A stretch of 64,000 bases of DNA from Streptomyces sp. TLI_105. GTDB lineage: Bacteria > Actinomycetota > Actinomycetes > Streptomycetales > Streptomycetaceae. Shown here piece by piece: positions 8,840 through 14,246 of this stretch. The position numbers and the translations under genes were made by a program. Within the stretch, counting starts at the first letter, position 1; every line of letters begins with the position of its first letter. Location of the stretch: contig NZ_FNSM01000001.1 in the NCBI RefSeq assembly GCF_900105415.1, positions 6,511,501 to 6,575,500 of the forward strand, given 5' to 3'. Under the pieces are notes generated by a model that saw only the letters and a program-made list of their open reading frames with translations, was not told the DNA's origin and did not search any database.

Positions 8840-8932
8840 GCGGGACCTCCTCGCCAGTGGCATGAGCACGCACGCTAGTGCTTCTGATCGTTCCGGGGAA
8901 CGAGGCGTGCGGAACGGGTCTTCCGCCCTTCC

Positions 8933-8950
8933 ATACCGACTGGTTAGTCT
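8933..8950 (+). promoter_or_regulatory. TetR-type 8-2-8 operator in the SDR promoter
   Basis: ATACCGACTGGTTAGTCT, 32-49 bp before the SDR start. The left half matches the shared consensus perfectly; the right half matches 5 of 8 positions. Same architecture and similar distance to the start codon as at maoC and the phosphotransferase operon. Confidence 0.55.
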
Positions 8951-8981
8951 GTCCCCGTCGTCACAGTCGAGAGGTGGGTCC

Positions 8982-9764
8982 ATGACCGCGGACACGAACG
9001 AGCTCCAGGGCGCCGGCGTCGTCGTCACCGGAGCGGGCGGCGGCATCGGCGCCGCCCTCGCCCGCCGCTTCGCGGCCGAGGGCGCCCGCGTCGTCGTCAA
9101 CGACCTCGACCCCGGGCGCACCAAGGCCGTCGCCGAGGAGATCGGCGCCTTCGCCGTCCCGGGCGACGCCTCCGCCGTCGTCGACGAGGCCCGTGAGGCC
9201 CTCGGCGGCACCGTGGACGTCTGGTGCGCCAACGCCGGACTCTCCTCGCCCGGCGACGCCTTCGCCGACGAGGACGTCTGGGCCGCGGCCTGGGACGTCA
9301 ACGTCATGGCCCACGTCCGCGCGGCCCGCGCCCTCCTCCCGGAGTGGCTGGAGCGCGGCAGCGGCCGCTTCGTCTCCACCGTCTCCGCCGCCGGACTGCT
9401 CACCATGATCGGCGCGGCGCCGTACAGCGTCTCCAAGCACGGCGCGTACGCCTTCGCCGAATGGCTCTCCCTCACCTACCGCCACCGCGGCCTGAAGGTC
9501 CACGCGATCTGCCCGCAGGGCGTCCGTACGGACATGCTCACCGCCGCCGGAACCGCCGGCGAGCTCGTCCTCGCCCCCACCGCCATCGAGCCCGAGGACG
9601 TCGCCGACGCCCTCCTCGACGCCATCGCCGCCGACCGCTTCCTCGTCCTGCCCCACCCCGAGGTCGCCGGCTACTACCGCAACCGCGCCACCGACCCCGA
9701 GCGGTGGCTCGGCACCATGAACCACGTCCAGCAGGCCTGGGAGACGGGCGCCCGTCGGCCGTAG
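8982..9764 (+). CDS. short-chain dehydrogenase/reductase
   Basis: A 260-residue classical SDR, NAD(P)-dependent and cytoplasmic. The Rossmann glycine motif VTGAGGGIG sits at residues 15-23, CANAG at 82-86, and the catalytic Ser135, Tyr148, Lys152 in STVSAAG and PYSVSK. ATG 8982 follows GAGGTGGG. The gene is followed 77 bp later by a TetR gene on the same strand, so the regulator may be co-transcribed. The shared operator with the phosphotransferase/acyl-CoA dehydrogenase operon suggests it reduces or oxidises a keto/hydroxy-acyl-CoA of the same pathway (LvaD-like role inferred, not shown). Confidence 0.9.
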   Translation: MTADTNELQGAGVVVTGAGGGIGAALARRFAAEGARVVVNDLDPGRTKAVAEEIGAFAVPGDASAVVDEAREALGGTVDVWCANAGLSSPGDAFADEDVWAAAWDVNVMAHVRAARALLPEWLERGSGRFVSTVSAAGLLTMIGAAPYSVSKHGAYAFAEWLSLTYRHRGLKVHAICPQGVRTDMLTAAGTAGELVLAPTAIEPEDVADALLDAIAADRFLVLPHPEVAGYYRNRATDPERWLGTMNHVQQAWETGARRP

Positions 9765-9790
9765 TGCCGGCGGATGGGAAGATCTACCGG

Positions 9791-9806
9791 CGGGAACGCG
9801 TTCCCG
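9791..9806 (+). promoter_or_regulatory. perfect 16-bp palindrome upstream of TetR
   Basis: CGGGAACGCGTTCCCG, a perfect palindrome 36 bp before the TetR start at 9842 and 27 bp after the SDR stop. Either the autoregulatory operator of this TetR or, less likely, a small transcription-ending hairpin of the SDR gene. Confidence 0.5.
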
Positions 9807-9841
9807 TGACCGAAAACGATCACCAAGGAAGGCGGCGCAGC

Positions 9842-10435
9842 ATGGCCAGGACGACGGACGGGAGCGGTGCACCCGTCCCCCAGAGGCTCCTCGCCGCCGC
9901 CACCCGGCTCTTCGCCGAGCGGGGCTACGACCGCACCTCCGTCCAGGAGATCGTCGAGGCCGCGGGGGTCACCAAGGGCGCGCTCTACCACTACTTCGGC
10001 TCCAAGGAGGACCTCCTCCAGGAGGTCTACTCCCGCGTCCTGCGCCTCCAGCAGGAGCGGCTCGACGCCTACGCGGACGCCGACGCGCCCGTCGAGGACC
10101 GGCTGCGCGACGCCGCCGCGGACGTCGTCGTCACCACCATCGAGAACCTCGACGACGCGTCCATCTTCTTCCGCTCCATGCACCACCTGAGCCCGGAGAA
10201 GCACAAGCAGGTGCGGGCCGAGCGGCGCCGCTACCACGAGCGCTTCCGGGCCCTGATCGAGGAAGGCCAGCGGGCGGGCGTCTTCTCCTCCGCCACGCCC
10301 GCCGACCTCGTCGTCGACTACCACTTCGGCTCCGTGCACCACCTCTCCACGTGGTACCGCCCGGACGGCCCCCTCACCCCCGAGGAGGTCGCCGCCCACC
10401 TCGCCGACCTCCTCCTCCGGGCCCTCCGTCCGTAG
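9842..10435 (+). CDS. TetR-family transcriptional regulator
   Basis: A 197-residue TetR regulator with the HTH at about residues 14-60 (RLFAERGYDRTSVQEIVEAAG, then TKGALYHYFGSKEDLLQEV) and a helical effector domain. ATG 9842 follows AAGGAAGGCGG. Lying between the SDR and the convergent acyl-CoA dehydrogenase operon, both of whose promoters carry the 8-2-8 operator, it is the best candidate for the protein that binds that operator. Co-transcription with the SDR would make it autoregulated. The stop codon TAG shares its G with the first base of the 160-bp inverted-repeat element. Confidence 0.9.
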   Translation: MARTTDGSGAPVPQRLLAAATRLFAERGYDRTSVQEIVEAAGVTKGALYHYFGSKEDLLQEVYSRVLRLQQERLDAYADADAPVEDRLRDAAADVVVTTIENLDDASIFFRSMHHLSPEKHKQVRAERRRYHERFRALIEEGQRAGVFSSATPADLVVDYHFGSVHHLSTWYRPDGPLTPEEVAAHLADLLLRALRP

Positions 10436-10594
10436 GGGGTGTCTTGCCGATCAGGCCGGGCTCGCGGCGTCTGGCACCGCGCCTCGCCGCGTTGTCGTCG
10501 GTCGACAACGCTCCGCGTTGCCTCCCTCCTCCGCCTTGCGATCCACGGCACCAGACGCCGCTCCCTGATCCGGCCTGATCGGCAAGACACCCCC
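10435..10594. mobile_element. 160-bp MITE-like element with perfect 25-bp terminal inverted repeats
   Basis: The ends 10435-10459 and 10570-10594 are exact reverse complements over 25 bp and begin with five Gs. Inside, a second pair of inverted segments (GGCGTCTGG near 10467 with CCAGACGCC near 10551) and a central palindrome around GTCGGTCGAC continue the symmetry. No reading frame is credible. It fills the gap between the TetR gene and the convergent acyl-CoA dehydrogenase (stop 10606). Structure fits a non-autonomous insertion element; transcribed, it could also act as a two-way terminator. Confidence 0.75.
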
Positions 10595-10605
10595 TGAGCC
10601 GCCCC

Positions 10606-11820
10606 TTACAGGTACTTCTTCAGCTCCCGGCGCGCCAGCGACCGCTGGTGCACCTCGTCCGGGCCGTCCGCCAGCTTCAGCGTCCGGGCCGCCGCCCACA
10701 GTTCGGCCAGCGGGAAGTCCTGCGAGACACCGCCCGCCCCGTGCGCCTGCACGGCCTTGTCGATGATGTCGACGACCGCGCGCGGGGTCGCGATCTTGAT
10801 GGCCTGGATCTCGGTGTGCGCGCCCTGGTTGCCGACGGTGTCCATGAGCCAGGCCGTCTTGAGGACGAGCAGCCGCAGCTGCTCGATGGTGACCCGGGCG
10901 TCGGCGATCCAGTTCTGCACCACGCCCTGCTGGGCGAGCGTCTTGCCGAAGGCGGTACGGGAGACGGCGCGCCGGCACATCAGCTCGACCGCCCGCTCCG
11001 CCATGCCGATGAGCCGCATGCAGTGGTGGATGCGGCCGGGGCCGAGCCGGGCCTGCGCGATGGCGAAGCCGCCGCCCTCCTCGCCGACGATGTTCGAGGC
11101 CGGGACCCGGACCCCGTCGAAGACCACCTCGGCGTGGCCGCCGTGGGAGTGGTCCTCGTACCCGTACACCTGCATCGCGCGCCGTACCTCGACGCCCGGG
11201 GTGTCGCGCGGCACGAGGATCATCGACTGCCGGCGGCGGACGTCCGGGCCGTCGGGGTCGGTCTTGCCCATGACGATGAAGATCCTGCAGTCCGGGTTCA
11301 TCGCCCCGGAGATGTACCACTTGCGCCCGTCGACGACGTACGAGTCGCCGTCCCGCCGGATCCGGGTCTCGATGTTGGTCGCGTCGGAGGAGGCGACCTC
11401 GGGCTCGGTCATCGCGAAGGCCGAGCGGATCTCGCCGGCGAGGAGCGGCTCCAGCCACTGCTTCTTCTGCGCCTCGTCGCCGAACTGGGCGAGCACCTCC
11501 ATGTTCCCGGTGTCCGGGGCGGCGCAGTTGAGGGCGGTCGGGGCGAGGTGCGGGCTGCGGCCGGTGATCTCGGCGAGCGGCGCGTACTGGAGGTTGGTCA
11601 GCCCGGCGCCGTACTCCGCGTCCGGCAGGAAGAGGTTCCAGAGCCCCTGCCGCTTGGCCTCCGCCTTGAGCTCCTCCACCACCGCCGGGGTGTCCCAGGG
11701 GGAGGCGAGCCGGGCGCGCTGCTCCTCGGCGACGGCCTCGGCCGGGTATACGTGCTCGTCCATGAAGGCGAGGAGCTTCGCCCGCAGTTCCTCGGTGCGC
11801 GCGTCGTACGCGAATTCCAT
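10606..11820 (-). CDS. acyl-CoA dehydrogenase, ACAD10/11-FadE type
   Basis: A 404-residue acyl-CoA dehydrogenase. Seen: FAMTEPEVASSDATN (FAD loop), GRKWYISGA, YGYEDHSHGGHAEVVFD, and the C-terminal LADGPDEVHQRSLARRELKKYL that marks the ACAD10/11 and long-chain FadE group. Translated directly after the APH-like phosphotransferase (6-bp gap), so the pair forms one operon. Fused or adjacent APH plus ACAD modules are known from human ACAD10/11 and from bacterial LvaA/LvaC, where a phosphorylated 4-hydroxyacyl-CoA is converted to an enoyl-CoA. The same role is inferred here. Its 3' end faces the MITE-like element. Confidence 0.92.
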   Translation of the reverse strand: MEFAYDARTEELRAKLLAFMDEHVYPAEAVAEEQRARLASPWDTPAVVEELKAEAKRQGLWNLFLPDAEYGAGLTNLQYAPLAEITGRSPHLAPTALNCAAPDTGNMEVLAQFGDEAQKKQWLEPLLAGEIRSAFAMTEPEVASSDATNIETRIRRDGDSYVVDGRKWYISGAMNPDCRIFIVMGKTDPDGPDVRRRQSMILVPRDTPGVEVRRAMQVYGYEDHSHGGHAEVVFDGVRVPASNIVGEEGGGFAIAQARLGPGRIHHCMRLIGMAERAVELMCRRAVSRTAFGKTLAQQGVVQNWIADARVTIEQLRLLVLKTAWLMDTVGNQGAHTEIQAIKIATPRAVVDIIDKAVQAHGAGGVSQDFPLAELWAAARTLKLADGPDEVHQRSLARRELKKYL

Positions 11821-11826
11821 GACGGA

Positions 11827-12849
11827 TCAGCCTTCCTGAAGGGTGGTGAGGCCGTGCTCGATGAAGACGGGGACGAGTTCGCCGATGCGGTCGAAGCCGG
11901 CGCCGACCGTCTGCCCGAGGGTCCACCGGTAGTGGATGCCCTCCAGGATCACGGCGAGTTTGAACCAGGCGAAGGCCGTGTACCAGGCGAGCCCGGAGGT
12001 GTCGCGGCCCGAGCGGGCCGCGTAGCGCTCGACCAGCTCGGCCGCGCTCGGGTGCCCGGCGGCGGTGGCGGTCGTGGAGATGGGGGAGCCCGGCAGGTCG
12101 AGGGGGGTGCTGTACATGACGAGGAGGCCGAGGTCGGTGAGCGGGTCGCCGAGTGTGGACATCTCCCAGTCGAGGACGGCCCGGATCCGGTCGTCCTCGC
12201 CGACGAGGACGTTGTCGAGCCGGTAGTCGCCGTGGATCACGGTCGGCGGCGGCGAGGCGGGCAGCGCGCGCCCGAGGGCGGCGTGCAGCTCGTCGATCCC
12301 CGGCAGTTCGCGGCCGCGCGAGGCGTCGAGCTGCTTGCCCCAGCGGCGCAGCTGCCGGTCGAGGAAGCCGTCCGGGCGGCCGAAGTCGCCGAGCCCCGCG
12401 GCCTCCGGATCGACGGCGTGCAGGTCGACGAGGGTGTCGACCAGGCCGAGGACGGTGGCGCGGGTGCGCTCGGGGCCGAGCGCGGCGAGCTCATGGGCCG
12501 AGCGGTACGGCGTCCCGTCGACGAAGTCCATGACGTAGAACGGCGCGCCGAGCACCGACTCGTCCTCGCAGAACAGGACCGTCCCGGGGACGGGCACGTC
12601 GGTCGCCCCCAGGGCGCTGACGACGCGGTGCTCGCGCCGCATGTCGTGGGCGGTGGCGAGGACGTGGCCGAGCGGGGGACGGCGGACCACCCAGCGGCCG
12701 GTGCCGTCGCTCACGGCGTACGTCAGGTTCGACCGGCCGCCCTCGATCAGCCGGGCCTCCAGGGGGCCGGAGAGCAGCCCGGGCCGCTCGCGGTCGAGGA
12801 ACCGGCGCAGCTGCTCGGGGTCGAGTCCTGGCGGCGGGGCGGAACTCAT
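11827..12849 (-). CDS. APH-family phosphotransferase (ACAD10/11 N-domain or LvaA-like)
   Basis: A 340-residue aminoglycoside-phosphotransferase-fold kinase. Visible: the nucleotide-binding start IEGGRSNLTYAVSD, WVVRRPP (ATP-lysine equivalent replaced by an Arg-rich strand), the Brenner-type catalytic motif VIHGDYRLDNVLV with catalytic Asp, and the metal-binding VLDWEMSTLGDPLTDLG. This subgroup is the kinase part of ACAD10/11-like systems that phosphorylate 4-hydroxyacyl-CoA, not antibiotics. ATG 12849. It is the first gene of the operon with the acyl-CoA dehydrogenase, and its promoter carries the 8-2-8 operator 40-57 bp upstream. Confidence 0.88.
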   Translation of the reverse strand: MSSAPPPGLDPEQLRRFLDRERPGLLSGPLEARLIEGGRSNLTYAVSDGTGRWVVRRPPLGHVLATAHDMRREHRVVSALGATDVPVPGTVLFCEDESVLGAPFYVMDFVDGTPYRSAHELAALGPERTRATVLGLVDTLVDLHAVDPEAAGLGDFGRPDGFLDRQLRRWGKQLDASRGRELPGIDELHAALGRALPASPPPTVIHGDYRLDNVLVGEDDRIRAVLDWEMSTLGDPLTDLGLLVMYSTPLDLPGSPISTTATAAGHPSAAELVERYAARSGRDTSGLAWYTAFAWFKLAVILEGIHYRWTLGQTVGAGFDRIGELVPVFIEHGLTTLQEG

Positions 12850-12888
12850 GGGTGCGTACCTCCGGATCGGTTGCGTCGGCGCCCATGA

Positions 12889-12906
12889 TGACCGACCAGT
12901 CGGTAT
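12889..12906 (-). promoter_or_regulatory. TetR-type 8-2-8 operator in front of the phosphotransferase-dehydrogenase operon
   Basis: Read on the minus strand the site is ATACCGACTGGTCGGTCA: the left half is perfect, the right half matches 6 of 8 positions, and the inner 6-bp arms ACCGAC/GTCGGT are exact. It is the best-preserved of the three sites with this consensus in the window. Confidence 0.6.
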
Positions 12907-12980
12907 GCAGTCCAGGGGGGCGGCTGGAAAGCGCGTCCCGCCCTCTGGTGGCTGGACGTATGCATGAATAGGGTTCACAT

Positions 12981-14246
12981 ATGGATGCGAAGCTGATCGT
13001 CGACGAAGTCCGGCTCACCCCGATCCTCATCTCCGACCCGCCCCTCCTCAACACCCAGGGCGTCCACCAGCCCTACACGCCCCGGCTCGTGGTCGAGGTG
13101 ATCACCAGGGGAGGGGTGAGCGGACTCGGGGAGACCTACGGCGACGGCGTCTACCTGGACATCGCCCGGCCGCTGGCCGAGGCGCTGCCGGGTCGATCGG
13201 TCACGGATGTGAACGGCCTCTTCGCGCTGGCGGAGGAGGCGGGTGGCGTCGCGCCTTCCGGGACGGACGCCGGGGTCGACGCGAGCGGCCTGCGCGGAGT
13301 GCGCACCGCCGACAAGCTCCGCCTCTCCGTCGTCTCCGCCTTCGAGACCGCCTGCCTGGACGCCCTCGGCAGGACCCTCGGCCTGCCCGTCCACGCCCTC
13401 CTCGGCGGCAAGGTCCGCGACGAGGTCGAGTACGGCGCGTACCTCTTCCACAAATGGGCCGGCACGGACGACTGGGGCGCGGCCCTCGACCCCGCCGGCA
13501 TCGTCGCCCAGGCCCGCCGCTTCGACCGCGAGTACGGCTTCCGCTCCTTCAAGCTCAAGGGCGGAGTGTTCGAGCCCGAGCGGGAGATCGCCGCGATCCG
13601 GGCGCTCGCCGAAGCGTTCCCCGGCCGCCCGCTCCGCCTCGACCCCAATGGCGCCTGGTCCGTGGAGACCTCGCTCGCCGTCGCCCGCGAACTGAAGGAC
13701 GTCCTGGAGTACCTGGAGGACCCGGCGAGCGGCACCGCCGCCATGGCCGAGATCGCCGCCCGCACGGACGTCCCGCTCGCCACCAACATGTGCGTGACGA
13801 CCTTCGAGGAGGTCCCGGAGGCCTTCGCCGCCGATGCGGTACGGATCGTCCTCTGCGACCATCACTACTGGGGCGGACTCCACCGCACCCGCGAACTGGC
13901 CGCGCTCTGCCGGACGTACGGCGTCGGGCTCTCCATGCACTCCAACACCCACCTGGGCATCAGCCTCGCCGCCATGACCCAGGTCGCTGCCACGCTGCCC
14001 GGCCTCCACCACGCCTGCGACACCCACTACCCGTGGCAGACGGAGGACGTCGTCACCCCCCGCCCCGCCTTCCGGGCGGGCCGGCTCACGGTCTCCGACG
14101 CGCCGGGCCTCGGCGTCGAACTGGACCGCGAGGCGCTCACGACCCTGCACCGGCGCTGGCTCGACGACGACGGCACGTTCAGGGACCGGGACGACGCGGC
14201 GGCGATGCGGAGGGCGGAGCCGGGCTGGACGCCGAGCACGTGGTAG
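12981..14246 (+). CDS. glucarate dehydratase-like enolase-superfamily enzyme
   Basis: A 421-residue member of the mandelate racemase/enolase superfamily, closest in motif pattern to glucarate dehydratase. Seen: KLKGG (Lys191/Lys193 of the KxK acid-base motif), metal ligands in LDPNGAW (Asp221, Asn223), LEDP (Glu246) and TNMC (Asn269), then LCDHHYWGG (Asp293) and MHSNTHLG (His320) forming the His-Asp dyad. It would dehydrate an acid sugar such as D-glucarate to a 2-keto-3-deoxy product in the cytoplasm. Divergent from the phosphotransferase operon. No aldolase or transporter for the pathway lies beside it, so the actual substrate is uncertain. Confidence 0.85.
   Translation: MDAKLIVDEVRLTPILISDPPLLNTQGVHQPYTPRLVVEVITRGGVSGLGETYGDGVYLDIARPLAEALPGRSVTDVNGLFALAEEAGGVAPSGTDAGVDASGLRGVRTADKLRLSVVSAFETACLDALGRTLGLPVHALLGGKVRDEVEYGAYLFHKWAGTDDWGAALDPAGIVAQARRFDREYGFRSFKLKGGVFEPEREIAAIRALAEAFPGRPLRLDPNGAWSVETSLAVARELKDVLEYLEDPASGTAAMAEIAARTDVPLATNMCVTTFEEVPEAFAADAVRIVLCDHHYWGGLHRTRELAALCRTYGVGLSMHSNTHLGISLAAMTQVAATLPGLHHACDTHYPWQTEDVVTPRPAFRAGRLTVSDAPGLGVELDREALTTLHRRWLDDDGTFRDRDDAAAMRRAEPGWTPSTW

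Follow-up and report, generated by a model that had tools for sequence, protein, structure and literature searches.

The locus at 8933–12906 of the window, by which we mean the whole 64-kb stretch of DNA analyzed here, raises the question of whether genes of two separate transcription units, encoding a kinase, an acyl-CoA dehydrogenase and a short-chain oxidoreductase, serve one catabolic route for 4-hydroxyacyl-CoA. Judging from the genes, their catalytic residues, the operators, their conservation and the gene linkage, we estimate a probability of about 0.7 that the two convergent units constitute a single TetR-repressed regulon bringing 4-hydroxy acids, and probably 4-oxo acids, into beta-oxidation by way of phosphorylation and elimination.

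Gene Layout

The plus strand carries the genes for a 260-aa SDR oxidoreductase (8982–9764; PF00106, E 5.9e-37) and a 197-aa TetR-family regulator (9842–10435; PF00440 and PF17932). Convergent with these, the minus strand carries the genes for a 404-aa acyl-CoA dehydrogenase of ACAD10/11 (LvaC) type, predicted to be phosphate-eliminating and hereafter abbreviated as ACAD (10606–11820; PF00441/02770/02771), and for a 340-aa APH-fold kinase, the predicted 4-hydroxyacyl-CoA kinase (11827–12849; PF01636, E 2.4e-57). As the original prediction had it, kinase and ACAD are direct neighbors, their two minus-strand ORFs being separated by 6 bp (11821–11826), and the SDR lies about 2 kb away (2.06 kb from its end to the kinase gene). 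Kinase and ACAD are not fused, each ORF having its own stop codon. None of the four proteins reaches the cut-off of any NCBIfam model. The TetR gene, which lies between the SDR and the kinase–ACAD genes, did not figure in the earlier gene list.

Kinase and Acyl-CoA Dehydrogenase

The ACAD is 56% identical to the corresponding domain of mouse ACAD11 and retains all eight of the mouse positions examined, namely H597, R626, R631, H634-C-M-R637 and D753. The residues kept in ACAD and kinase are reported to serve phosphorylation of 4-hydroxyacyl-CoA (kinase) and then expulsion of the phosphate (ACAD); in the mouse enzyme, nonconservative changes of R626, H634 and R637 were the most disruptive, with accumulation of the phospho-intermediate, and H597 was of partial importance only (PMC12440821, excerpt). 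The same H-R-R-HCMR-D signature is found in the paralogs (L016, L017 and L018) of genome G000, which contains the window, and in 29 of 29 ACADs of the genus; two ordinary ACADs compared with them do not have it.

The kinase retains the equivalents of R176, which contacts CoA, of the catalytic D220 and of N225 in the alignment with mouse ACAD11; the published residue R86 had no match in the deposited chain at the numbering used, and the nearest arginine, Arg84 (beside the αC Glu), is kept. Profile comparison gives 8.7e-104 for ACAD11, 8.8e-27 for steroid kinase, 1.4e-7 for the best of the macrolide/aminoglycoside kinases and 5.1e-4 for choline kinase, and in both tree and profile the kinase is nearest to ACAD-linked kinases and ACAD11. 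These values strongly favor ACAD11 and therefore speak against a grouping with unrelated choline or aminoglycoside kinases, the outcome that the original prediction had named as its refutation. The best single-sequence match of solved structure is 9o56, named "aminoglycoside phosphotransferase" by its depositors, and comparison of folds, in which ACAD11 ranks 15th (237 columns aligned) below aminoglycoside kinases, carries little information on specificity. Residues and profiles together support, at the sequence level, the proposed assignment of the two proteins to an unfused ACAD10/11 pair resembling LvaA/LvaC. Unfused orthologs from Burkholderia can substitute for ACAD10 domains in vitro (PMC11342911, excerpt).

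The G000 genome contains three closely related kinase–ACAD pairs and one divergent pair, and their substrates have therefore probably diversified. An apparent SDR–kinase fusion at 859 kb (L017) was discarded as probable decay, the C-terminal part of its SDR looking frame-shifted by eye.

Operators, Putative Promoters and TetR

An operator common to the two units, as originally proposed, is borne out by two exact matches of ATACCGACYRGTYRG in the window (8933–8947, plus strand; 12892–12906, minus strand), against 0.00 expected from 100 shuffles. Operator 1 is palindromic (ATACCGACTGGTTAGTCT; 8933–8950, plus strand), lies 5′ of the SDR and is exact in 17 of 17 loci with a script-labeled SDR. Operator 2 (ATACCGACTGGTCGG; 12892–12906, minus strand) lies 5′ of the kinase, within the intergenic stretch that the latter shares with a divergent gene of the enolase superfamily. 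A shorter version of the operator with up to two mismatches was found 5 times, not above the 6.99 expected by chance, and the 14-mer with one mismatch occurs 59 times in the whole G000 genome, barely above the control of 46. Because such mismatch-tolerant searches stay near chance, the evidence for the operator lies in its exactness and conservation. The exact 15-mer ATACCGACYGGTYRG occurs 184 times in 81 genomes of the genus (G000 included), against 7 for the reversed pattern, and is present in 77 of them; all 30 kinase loci given have it upstream of the kinase, and 27 of 29 given for the SDR have it upstream of that gene (L100 and L263 being one region), the remaining two, L108 and L110, having no SDR. 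Conservation at both genes across the genus supports the predicted co-regulation. No operator was found 5′ of the TetR gene itself in 30 loci of the genus. Outside the phylum, one-mismatch operators begin 33–47 bp ahead of the ACAD match in four loci of Bacillota. Two groups of candidate sites in G000 were rejected: that of a FadD-type ligase (L034), which degrades and is not kept among the 12 genomes compared, and other one-mismatch operators, about half of the 14 examined being inside called genes.

Both operators appear to be embedded in promoters. The putative SDR promoter (8920–8950, plus strand) would consist of a –35-like CTTCCG (8920–8925) and a –10-like TAGTCT (8945–8950) separated by 19 nt; TAGTCTG is present in 27 of 27 loci found and CTTCC lies 7–8 nt 5′ of the operator in 25 of these, while a consensus promoter scan detected no elements on the SDR side. 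The putative kinase promoter (12885–12914, minus strand) would combine a –35-like TGGACT (12909–12914), a spacer of 18 nt and a –10-like CATCAT (12885–12890), with TGGAC, 3 nt from the operator, in 30 of 30 loci and CATCAT in 26 of 30.

The TetR protein, present in 79 of the 81 genomes, is the likely repressor acting at both operators. Its top solved relative is 3vpr (94 bits), which we take to be PfmR. On the same contig and within 15 kb it is accompanied by the SDR in 73 genomes, by the kinase in 72 and by an acyl-CoA ligase in 60, which makes the layout an old one. We rejected its identification as a γ-butyrolactone receptor, since it scores 73.9 with NF041196 (cut-off 150) and most of the receptor structures listed match its DNA-binding end only. 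A different regulator of PfmR type might instead bind the operator, which we regard as unlikely. In two genomes, G035 and G051, TetR persists although none of the SDR, the kinase and the ligase passes the cut-offs used, and its locus has no operator even with two mismatches allowed; TetR may for this reason have other targets or may not be the operator binder. Moreover, G000 has a 61% identical paralog at 1.39 Mb, the cluster of which is without the exact operator core. Besides the frequency and linkage just given, this alternative is opposed by Microbispora and Nonomuraea (L234, L236 and L255), in which the operator stands just upstream of a TetR gene whose product is 68–70% identical.

Ligase, Carboxylesterase and SDR

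In the loci of relatives that were read, the acyl-CoA ligase lies between SDR and TetR, and the SDR and ligase genes overlap by 4 bp in 9 of 10 ligase-bearing loci (our own gene calls). The possibility that the SDR is a chance neighbor, raised by its presence in only 5 of 30 TetR loci at ±1.5 kb, was dismissed once wider regions revealed this intervening ligase. In G000, scoring of 17 out of 82 candidates turned up no ortholog of the unit's ligase at E ≤ 1e-170, and activation would therefore have to come from another ligase. A carboxylesterase is under the same operator in 29 of 30 loci of relatives, which hints at ester or lactone substrates. By extension, the unit might be the core of an old TetR regulon for γ-lactones and 4-hydroxy esters, opened by the carboxylesterase and passed by ligase, SDR, kinase and ACAD to beta-oxidation, one natural substrate in streptomycetes being their own γ-butyrolactone signals, so that the hormone would be cleared; we consider this a long shot.

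SDRs of the window type adjoin kinase–ACAD genes, or lie within 7 kb of them, in Deinococcus, Pirellulales, Micromonosporaceae, Pseudonocardiaceae and Nocardioides, and related operons show the order HAD–kinase–ACAD of human ACAD10, but as separate genes. Such an ACAD occurs in 80 named loci; in the stretch examined, 40 of these had no match to the kinase and 48 none to the SDR above 100 bits.

The SDR has the active site Ser135-Tyr148-Lys152 plus Asp41 past the second strand. These four residues are invariant in an alignment of 44 rows, of which the window is one and some share a genome, and Asp41 suggests a cofactor of NAD(H) type. It shares 24% identity with an Azoarcus SDR used as a stand-in for LvaD and belongs to a different subfamily; its predicted model (mean pLDDT 83.7) matches generic SDR folds.

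Proposed Mechanism and Alternatives

We propose that in each promoter TetR would occupy the operator, which is flanked by the putative –35 and –10 boxes, and would stop RNA polymerase until an acyl-CoA of the pathway, probably, frees it. Acids would be activated in G000 by another ligase, and in most relatives by the ligase beside TetR. The SDR would most likely interconvert 4-oxoacyl-CoA and 4-hydroxyacyl-CoA, the kinase would add phosphate to the 4-hydroxyl of the latter, and the ACAD with its FAD would strip this phosphate to give 2-enoyl-CoA, leaving the rest to ordinary beta-oxidation. The three-gene reading of the original prediction is partly supported, levulinate being a candidate substrate.

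For the SDR, the role of 4-oxoacyl-CoA reductase is a plausible prediction and that of NAD+-dependent 3-hydroxyacyl-CoA dehydrogenase, acting after hydration with the kinase–ACAD chemistry unchanged, fits nearly as well; we give the latter somewhat less than even odds. Among solved structures, sequence and profile comparisons alike rank the (3R)-hydroxyacyl-CoA dehydrogenase 2et6 first for this SDR, but the match covers about residues 4–181, the common SDR core only. Asp41 also agrees with NAD(H), and an operator-bearing operon in G001 combines thiolase, HAD, a TetR-like gene, a window-type SDR, an adjacent enoyl-CoA hydratase-like gene, ACAD and a second SDR, so a beta-oxidation role also fits. 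Furthermore, at least four actinomycete loci (L227, L230, L233 and L239) contain both SDR subfamilies, of which one may be LvaD-like and the window type the other. Against this role, the unit showed neither a hydratase nor a thiolase in any of 20 Streptomyces regions that were read, and general beta-oxidation already provides a 3-hydroxyacyl-CoA dehydrogenase. In those regions the SDR, besides, pairs with a ligase as LvaD does with LvaE (PMC6692424, excerpt).

Phosphorylation–elimination could also act on other substrates than simple 4-hydroxy fatty acids, such as branched, terpenoid or steroid side-chain acyl-CoA, a rather doubtful reading. It draws on the next-closest solved kinases, which are 25-hydroxysteroid kinase (9fsg and 9ft5), working in ATP-dependent dehydration (PMC8449060, excerpt), and Rv3168 (3ats), as well as on the multiple kinase–ACAD pairs of G000; yet the profile match to ACAD11 is far better than that to the steroid kinase, and neither the R176 that contacts CoA nor the ACAD residues that bind phosphate have been lost. 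Very improbable is an ordinary fatty-acid unit, with a conventional acyl-CoA dehydrogenase and an unrelated kinase under a general fatty-acid TetR. In its favor are the likeness of the operator to the one used by a general regulator of fatty-acid genes and the NCBIfam cut-offs, which are missed throughout; against it, catalytic Asp and HCMR stand in place of conventional ACAD residues, ACAD–kinase linkage spans phyla, and ACAD10/11 oxidized none of the plain acyl-CoAs tried (PMC12440821, excerpt).

If the 4-hydroxyacyl-CoA regulon is real, most Streptomyces among the 81 genomes searched would have a self-contained, regulated route for 4-hydroxy acids; the operator would offer a handle for finding the inducer; the separate HAD–kinase–ACAD genes would make the role of HAD testable in bacteria; and a function would be assigned to kinases at present annotated as "aminoglycoside phosphotransferase" or "phosphotransferase family protein".

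Comparison with Known Systems

The chemistry is already known, whereas the regulon is apparently undescribed: no description of a Streptomyces unit of this type was found among the matches listed from openly licensed literature (CC0/CC BY/CC BY-SA). ACAD10/11 chemistry was assigned in 2024–2025, its bacterial side resting on Pseudomonas and one Burkholderia pair (PMC11342911 and PMC12440821, excerpts). The lva operon of P. putida comprises the same enzyme families (LvaA kinase, LvaC ACAD, LvaD SDR and LvaE ligase, the last in relatives of the window), the likeness being one of family. LvaD reduces levulinyl-CoA and LvaE activates levulinate, their genes having consecutive locus tags (PP_2794 and PP_2795), and growth on levulinate persists in an lvaE mutant (PMC6692424, excerpt). 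However, lva is one operon controlled by the sigma54-type LvaR, whereas the window has two convergent units and a TetR; lva has a dedicated ligase, that of the unit not being found in G000; and lva has LvaB, for any ORF of which kind the kinase–ACAD gap is too small, the P. citronellolis cluster being likewise without LvaB (PMC6692424, excerpt). Loci of Halopseudomonas (L206) and Pseudomonas (L209) were discarded as reference lva operons, no kinase or SDR being seen beside their ACAD.

Mammalian ACAD10 and ACAD11 have the same kinase and ACAD families with the same active-site residues, but are fused, whereas the unit in the window has separate genes under bacterial transcriptional control and, unlike ACAD10, no HAD gene. 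The 25-hydroxysteroid kinase (9fsg), second-ranked by fold, is another APH-fold enzyme that phosphorylates a hydroxyl en route to dehydration (PMC8449060, excerpt), but its substrate is a steroid rather than an acyl-CoA and identity over the fold is about 21%. On the side of regulation, the closest parallel is PfmR (TTHB023) of Thermus thermophilus, a TetR of fatty-acid genes, the consensus of which, TACCGACCGNTNGGTN, is matched at 12 of 13 specified bases by the kinase site and at 11 of 13 by the SDR site (PMC7022988, excerpt).

Gene Organization and a Shared Operator

The gene calls place an SDR gene (8982-9764) and a TetR gene (9842-10435) on the plus strand of the window, facing the minus-strand genes of an acyl-CoA dehydrogenase, hereafter ACAD (10606-11820), and of an APH-fold kinase (11827-12849); the 6-bp gap previously noticed between the latter two is borne out by these calls. 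Where the TetR and ACAD genes converge, the stretch 10436-10600 holds an imperfect inverted repeat that has 53 whole or partial matches across the genome, its own copy included, as a MITE-like or terminator-like family. An enolase-superfamily gene (12981-14246, plus strand) diverges from the kinase with the operator in between; it scores under the glucarate dehydratase cut-off and is labelled in part of the 20 regions read in relatives, being absent from the labels in the rest.

The original prediction was of a 4-hydroxyacyl-CoA unit in which kinase, ACAD and SDR share an operator. The underlying observation, these gene families with a common operator, is real, and its support is now stronger than could be given at the time. 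The common operator stands: ATACCGACYRGTYRG has exactly two exact matches in the window, upstream of the SDR (site 8933-8950) and of the kinase (site 12892-12906), and none in 100 shuffles, and it is conserved genus-wide. A shorter pattern with two mismatches permitted reached chance level only. Conservation is the real test of the operator: the exact 15-mer ATACCGACYGGTYRG occurs in 77 of the 81 Streptomyces genomes (TLI_105 included), with 184 sites summed over the set versus 7 for the reversed pattern. In the best 80 of at least 595 named loci with such an ACAD, a one-mismatch search gave 55 matches, palindromic sites being counted on both strands, versus one for the reversed pattern; in four Bacillota loci among these 80 the site starts 33-47 bp ahead of the ACAD match. 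Operator-like sites also lie beside a gene resembling, by eye, an LLM-class oxidoreductase in genomes G013, G007 and G049 (loci L124, L129 and L136).

When loci are aligned on the operator, the kinase side reads TGGAC, 3 nt, ATACCGACYGGTCGG and (T)CATCAT in 30 of 30 cases, the final box differing in four. The SDR-side footprint was found in 27 of the 29 loci given (L100 and L263 being one region), the exceptions L108 and L110 being without the SDR; ATACCGACYGGTTAGTCTG is present in all 27, with CTTCC 7-8 nt upstream in 25. Because of these footprints, the operator would sit between a -35-like and a -10-like box in both promoters. A simple promoter scan detected no sigma-70 consensus, so that the boxes rest on inference from conservation. 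The broken symmetry of the SDR-side operator (TTAGTCT) would be explained if TAGTCT doubles as the -10 box.

Relationships of the ACAD and Kinase with ACAD11

The window ACAD and the corresponding domain of mouse ACAD11 share 56% identity, and the window protein retains the equivalents of H597, R626, R631, H634-C-M-R637 and D753. For the mouse enzyme, nonconservative changes of R626, H634 or R637 are reported as the most disruptive, with accumulation of the phospho-intermediate, and R637K and changes of H597 as having partial effects (PMC12440821). The same residue set is present in 29 of 29 genus orthologs, in the TLI_105 paralogs of loci L016, L017 and L018, and in five of the six plasmid-borne bacterial ACADs compared (the exception, from Rhodococcus, has HAMR), and is missing from both ordinary ACADs compared; two table rows that are neighbouring ORFs of locus L015 were left out of these counts.

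The kinase, whose closest named relatives are from Streptomyces (the TLI_105 genome measures 8.88 Mb), is 33% identical to the kinase domain of ACAD11 and retains R176, D220 and N225. Its best solved matches in a single-sequence search are 9o56 (1.5e-70), deposited under the name aminoglycoside phosphotransferase, 3dxp (7.3e-53) and ACAD11 (3.5e-47). With a 15-row profile the order becomes 3dxp (1.8e-127), 9o56 (6e-106) and ACAD11 (8.7e-104 and 2.1e-102), followed by 25-hydroxysteroid kinase (8.8e-27) and Rv3168 (5.2e-25). The first macrolide or aminoglycoside kinase comes in at 1.4e-7, and choline kinase at 5.1e-4. The predicted structure (pLDDT 91.7) has 3dxp as its nearest fold (TM 0.81/0.84), and ACAD11 ranks 15th by fold only, with 237 columns aligned. 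In a 38-row tree with a very long outgroup branch, mouse ACAD11 falls within Pseudomonadota kinases and the window kinase within actinomycete ones.

Possible Roles of the SDR

The Ser-Tyr-Lys residues and Asp41 of the SDR are retained in all 44 aligned rows, Asp41 suggesting NAD(H) as the cofactor. The protein is 43% identical to a Deinococcus plasmid SDR situated between ACAD and kinase genes. A window-type SDR (140 bits or more) occurs in 16 of the best 80 of at least 595 named ACAD loci, eight of the 16 lying outside Streptomyces. In 40 of these 80 the stretch gives no kinase match, and 48 lack an SDR scoring above 100 bits, so that linkage is frequent without being universal. Across 456 kb of other regions the sole window-type match, L126, belongs to an operator-bearing cluster. 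At least four loci (L227, L230, L233 and L239) carry this SDR together with a second one like that of L016, and an operon of genome G001 runs operator, thiolase, HAD, TetR-like, SDR, hydratase-like, ACAD, SDR. On the basis of this distribution, the two-SDR loci and the G001 operon, we give a probability of about 0.5 to the SDR being a 4-oxo reductase; that it is instead a 3-hydroxyacyl-CoA dehydrogenase is a serious, if less probable, alternative.

The Ligase, the Regulator and Other Operator Targets

An exact operator precedes the SDR in all 17 regions with a script-labelled SDR, among 20 read (L096 was unlabelled by the script; L108 and L110 have the TetR only). An acyl-CoA ligase follows the SDR in ten of the 17, overlapping it by 4 bp in nine according to our own gene calls. 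The order in these regions is SDR, ligase, TetR, then convergent ACAD and kinase, with extra genes inserted in some and only a kinase fragment in L107. At the cut-offs used, the TetR is present in 79 of the 81 genomes, the SDR in 76, the kinase in 75 and the ligase in 61; within 15 kb on one contig, the TetR accompanies the SDR in 73, the kinase in 72 (71 of them on opposite strands) and the ligase in 60. Nothing in TLI_105 matches the ligase at 1e-170; the same combination, TetR and SDR present but no ligase match, recurs in 14 other genomes, some of them incomplete assemblies. Gene order and linkage in relatives make the ancestral unit look like SDR-ligase-TetR facing ACAD-kinase, the ligase having probably been lost in TLI_105. 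In Pseudomonas putida, a mutant of lvaE, the ligase gene of the levulinate set, is reported to be still able to grow on levulinate (PMC6692424).

The best solved relative of the TetR is 3vpr (94 bits). The consensus of PfmR, the fatty-acid TetR of Thermus thermophilus, has been published as TACCGACCGNTNGGTN (PMC7022988), and the window sites match 12 (kinase side) and 11 (SDR side) of its 13 specified bases. A third operator target is a carboxylesterase (PF00144), the closest solved protein being fenoxaprop-ethyl hydrolase 7y3z; it occurs in 34 of 81 genomes, with the operator upstream in 29 of 30 loci fetched (L161-L190), and has no match in TLI_105. Two loci speak against a simple regulon picture: L108 (G035) and L110 (G051) retain the TetR, with SDR, ligase, kinase, ACAD and operator gone from the locus. 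A single exact operator core is present at another place in the G051 genome.

Paralogous Operons and Comparison with Known Systems

TLI_105 also contains a paralogous operon, TetR-thiolase-SDR-HAD-kinase-ACAD, at 8276-14647 of L016 (G000:C1:1377000-1396900), and fragmented, apparently decaying kinase-ACAD copies close to a contig end (L019 and L020, near 213 and 240 kb). On a plasmid of Streptomyces sp. NBC_00388 (L159, 5853-15203) a cluster contains the kinase-ACAD pair together with ketoacyl synthases, a HAD and a hotdog gene related to AfsA. In Longimycelium tulufanense (L276, 6312-9212), HAD, kinase and ACAD directly follow an operator that is exact on one strand and has one mismatch on the other.

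Among the papers listed by a literature search of partial coverage, none described the Streptomyces split regulon, its operator or members, or ACAD10-ordered operons. The chemistry proposed for the unit has precedents in Lva and ACAD10/11. Apparently new are the Streptomyces regulon, conserved and split in two, together with its operator, the membership of the ligase and the esterase, and the ACAD10-ordered operons elsewhere. The putative ancestral Streptomyces unit resembles the Lva set, but is divided between two promoters. The HAD-kinase-ACAD gene order of L016 is the domain order of human ACAD10, whose HAD domain reportedly keeps just one Asp of the DxD motif, the first, as does the L016 HAD (LDYGG), and L276 presents the unfused ACAD10 order beneath the same operator type as the window unit.
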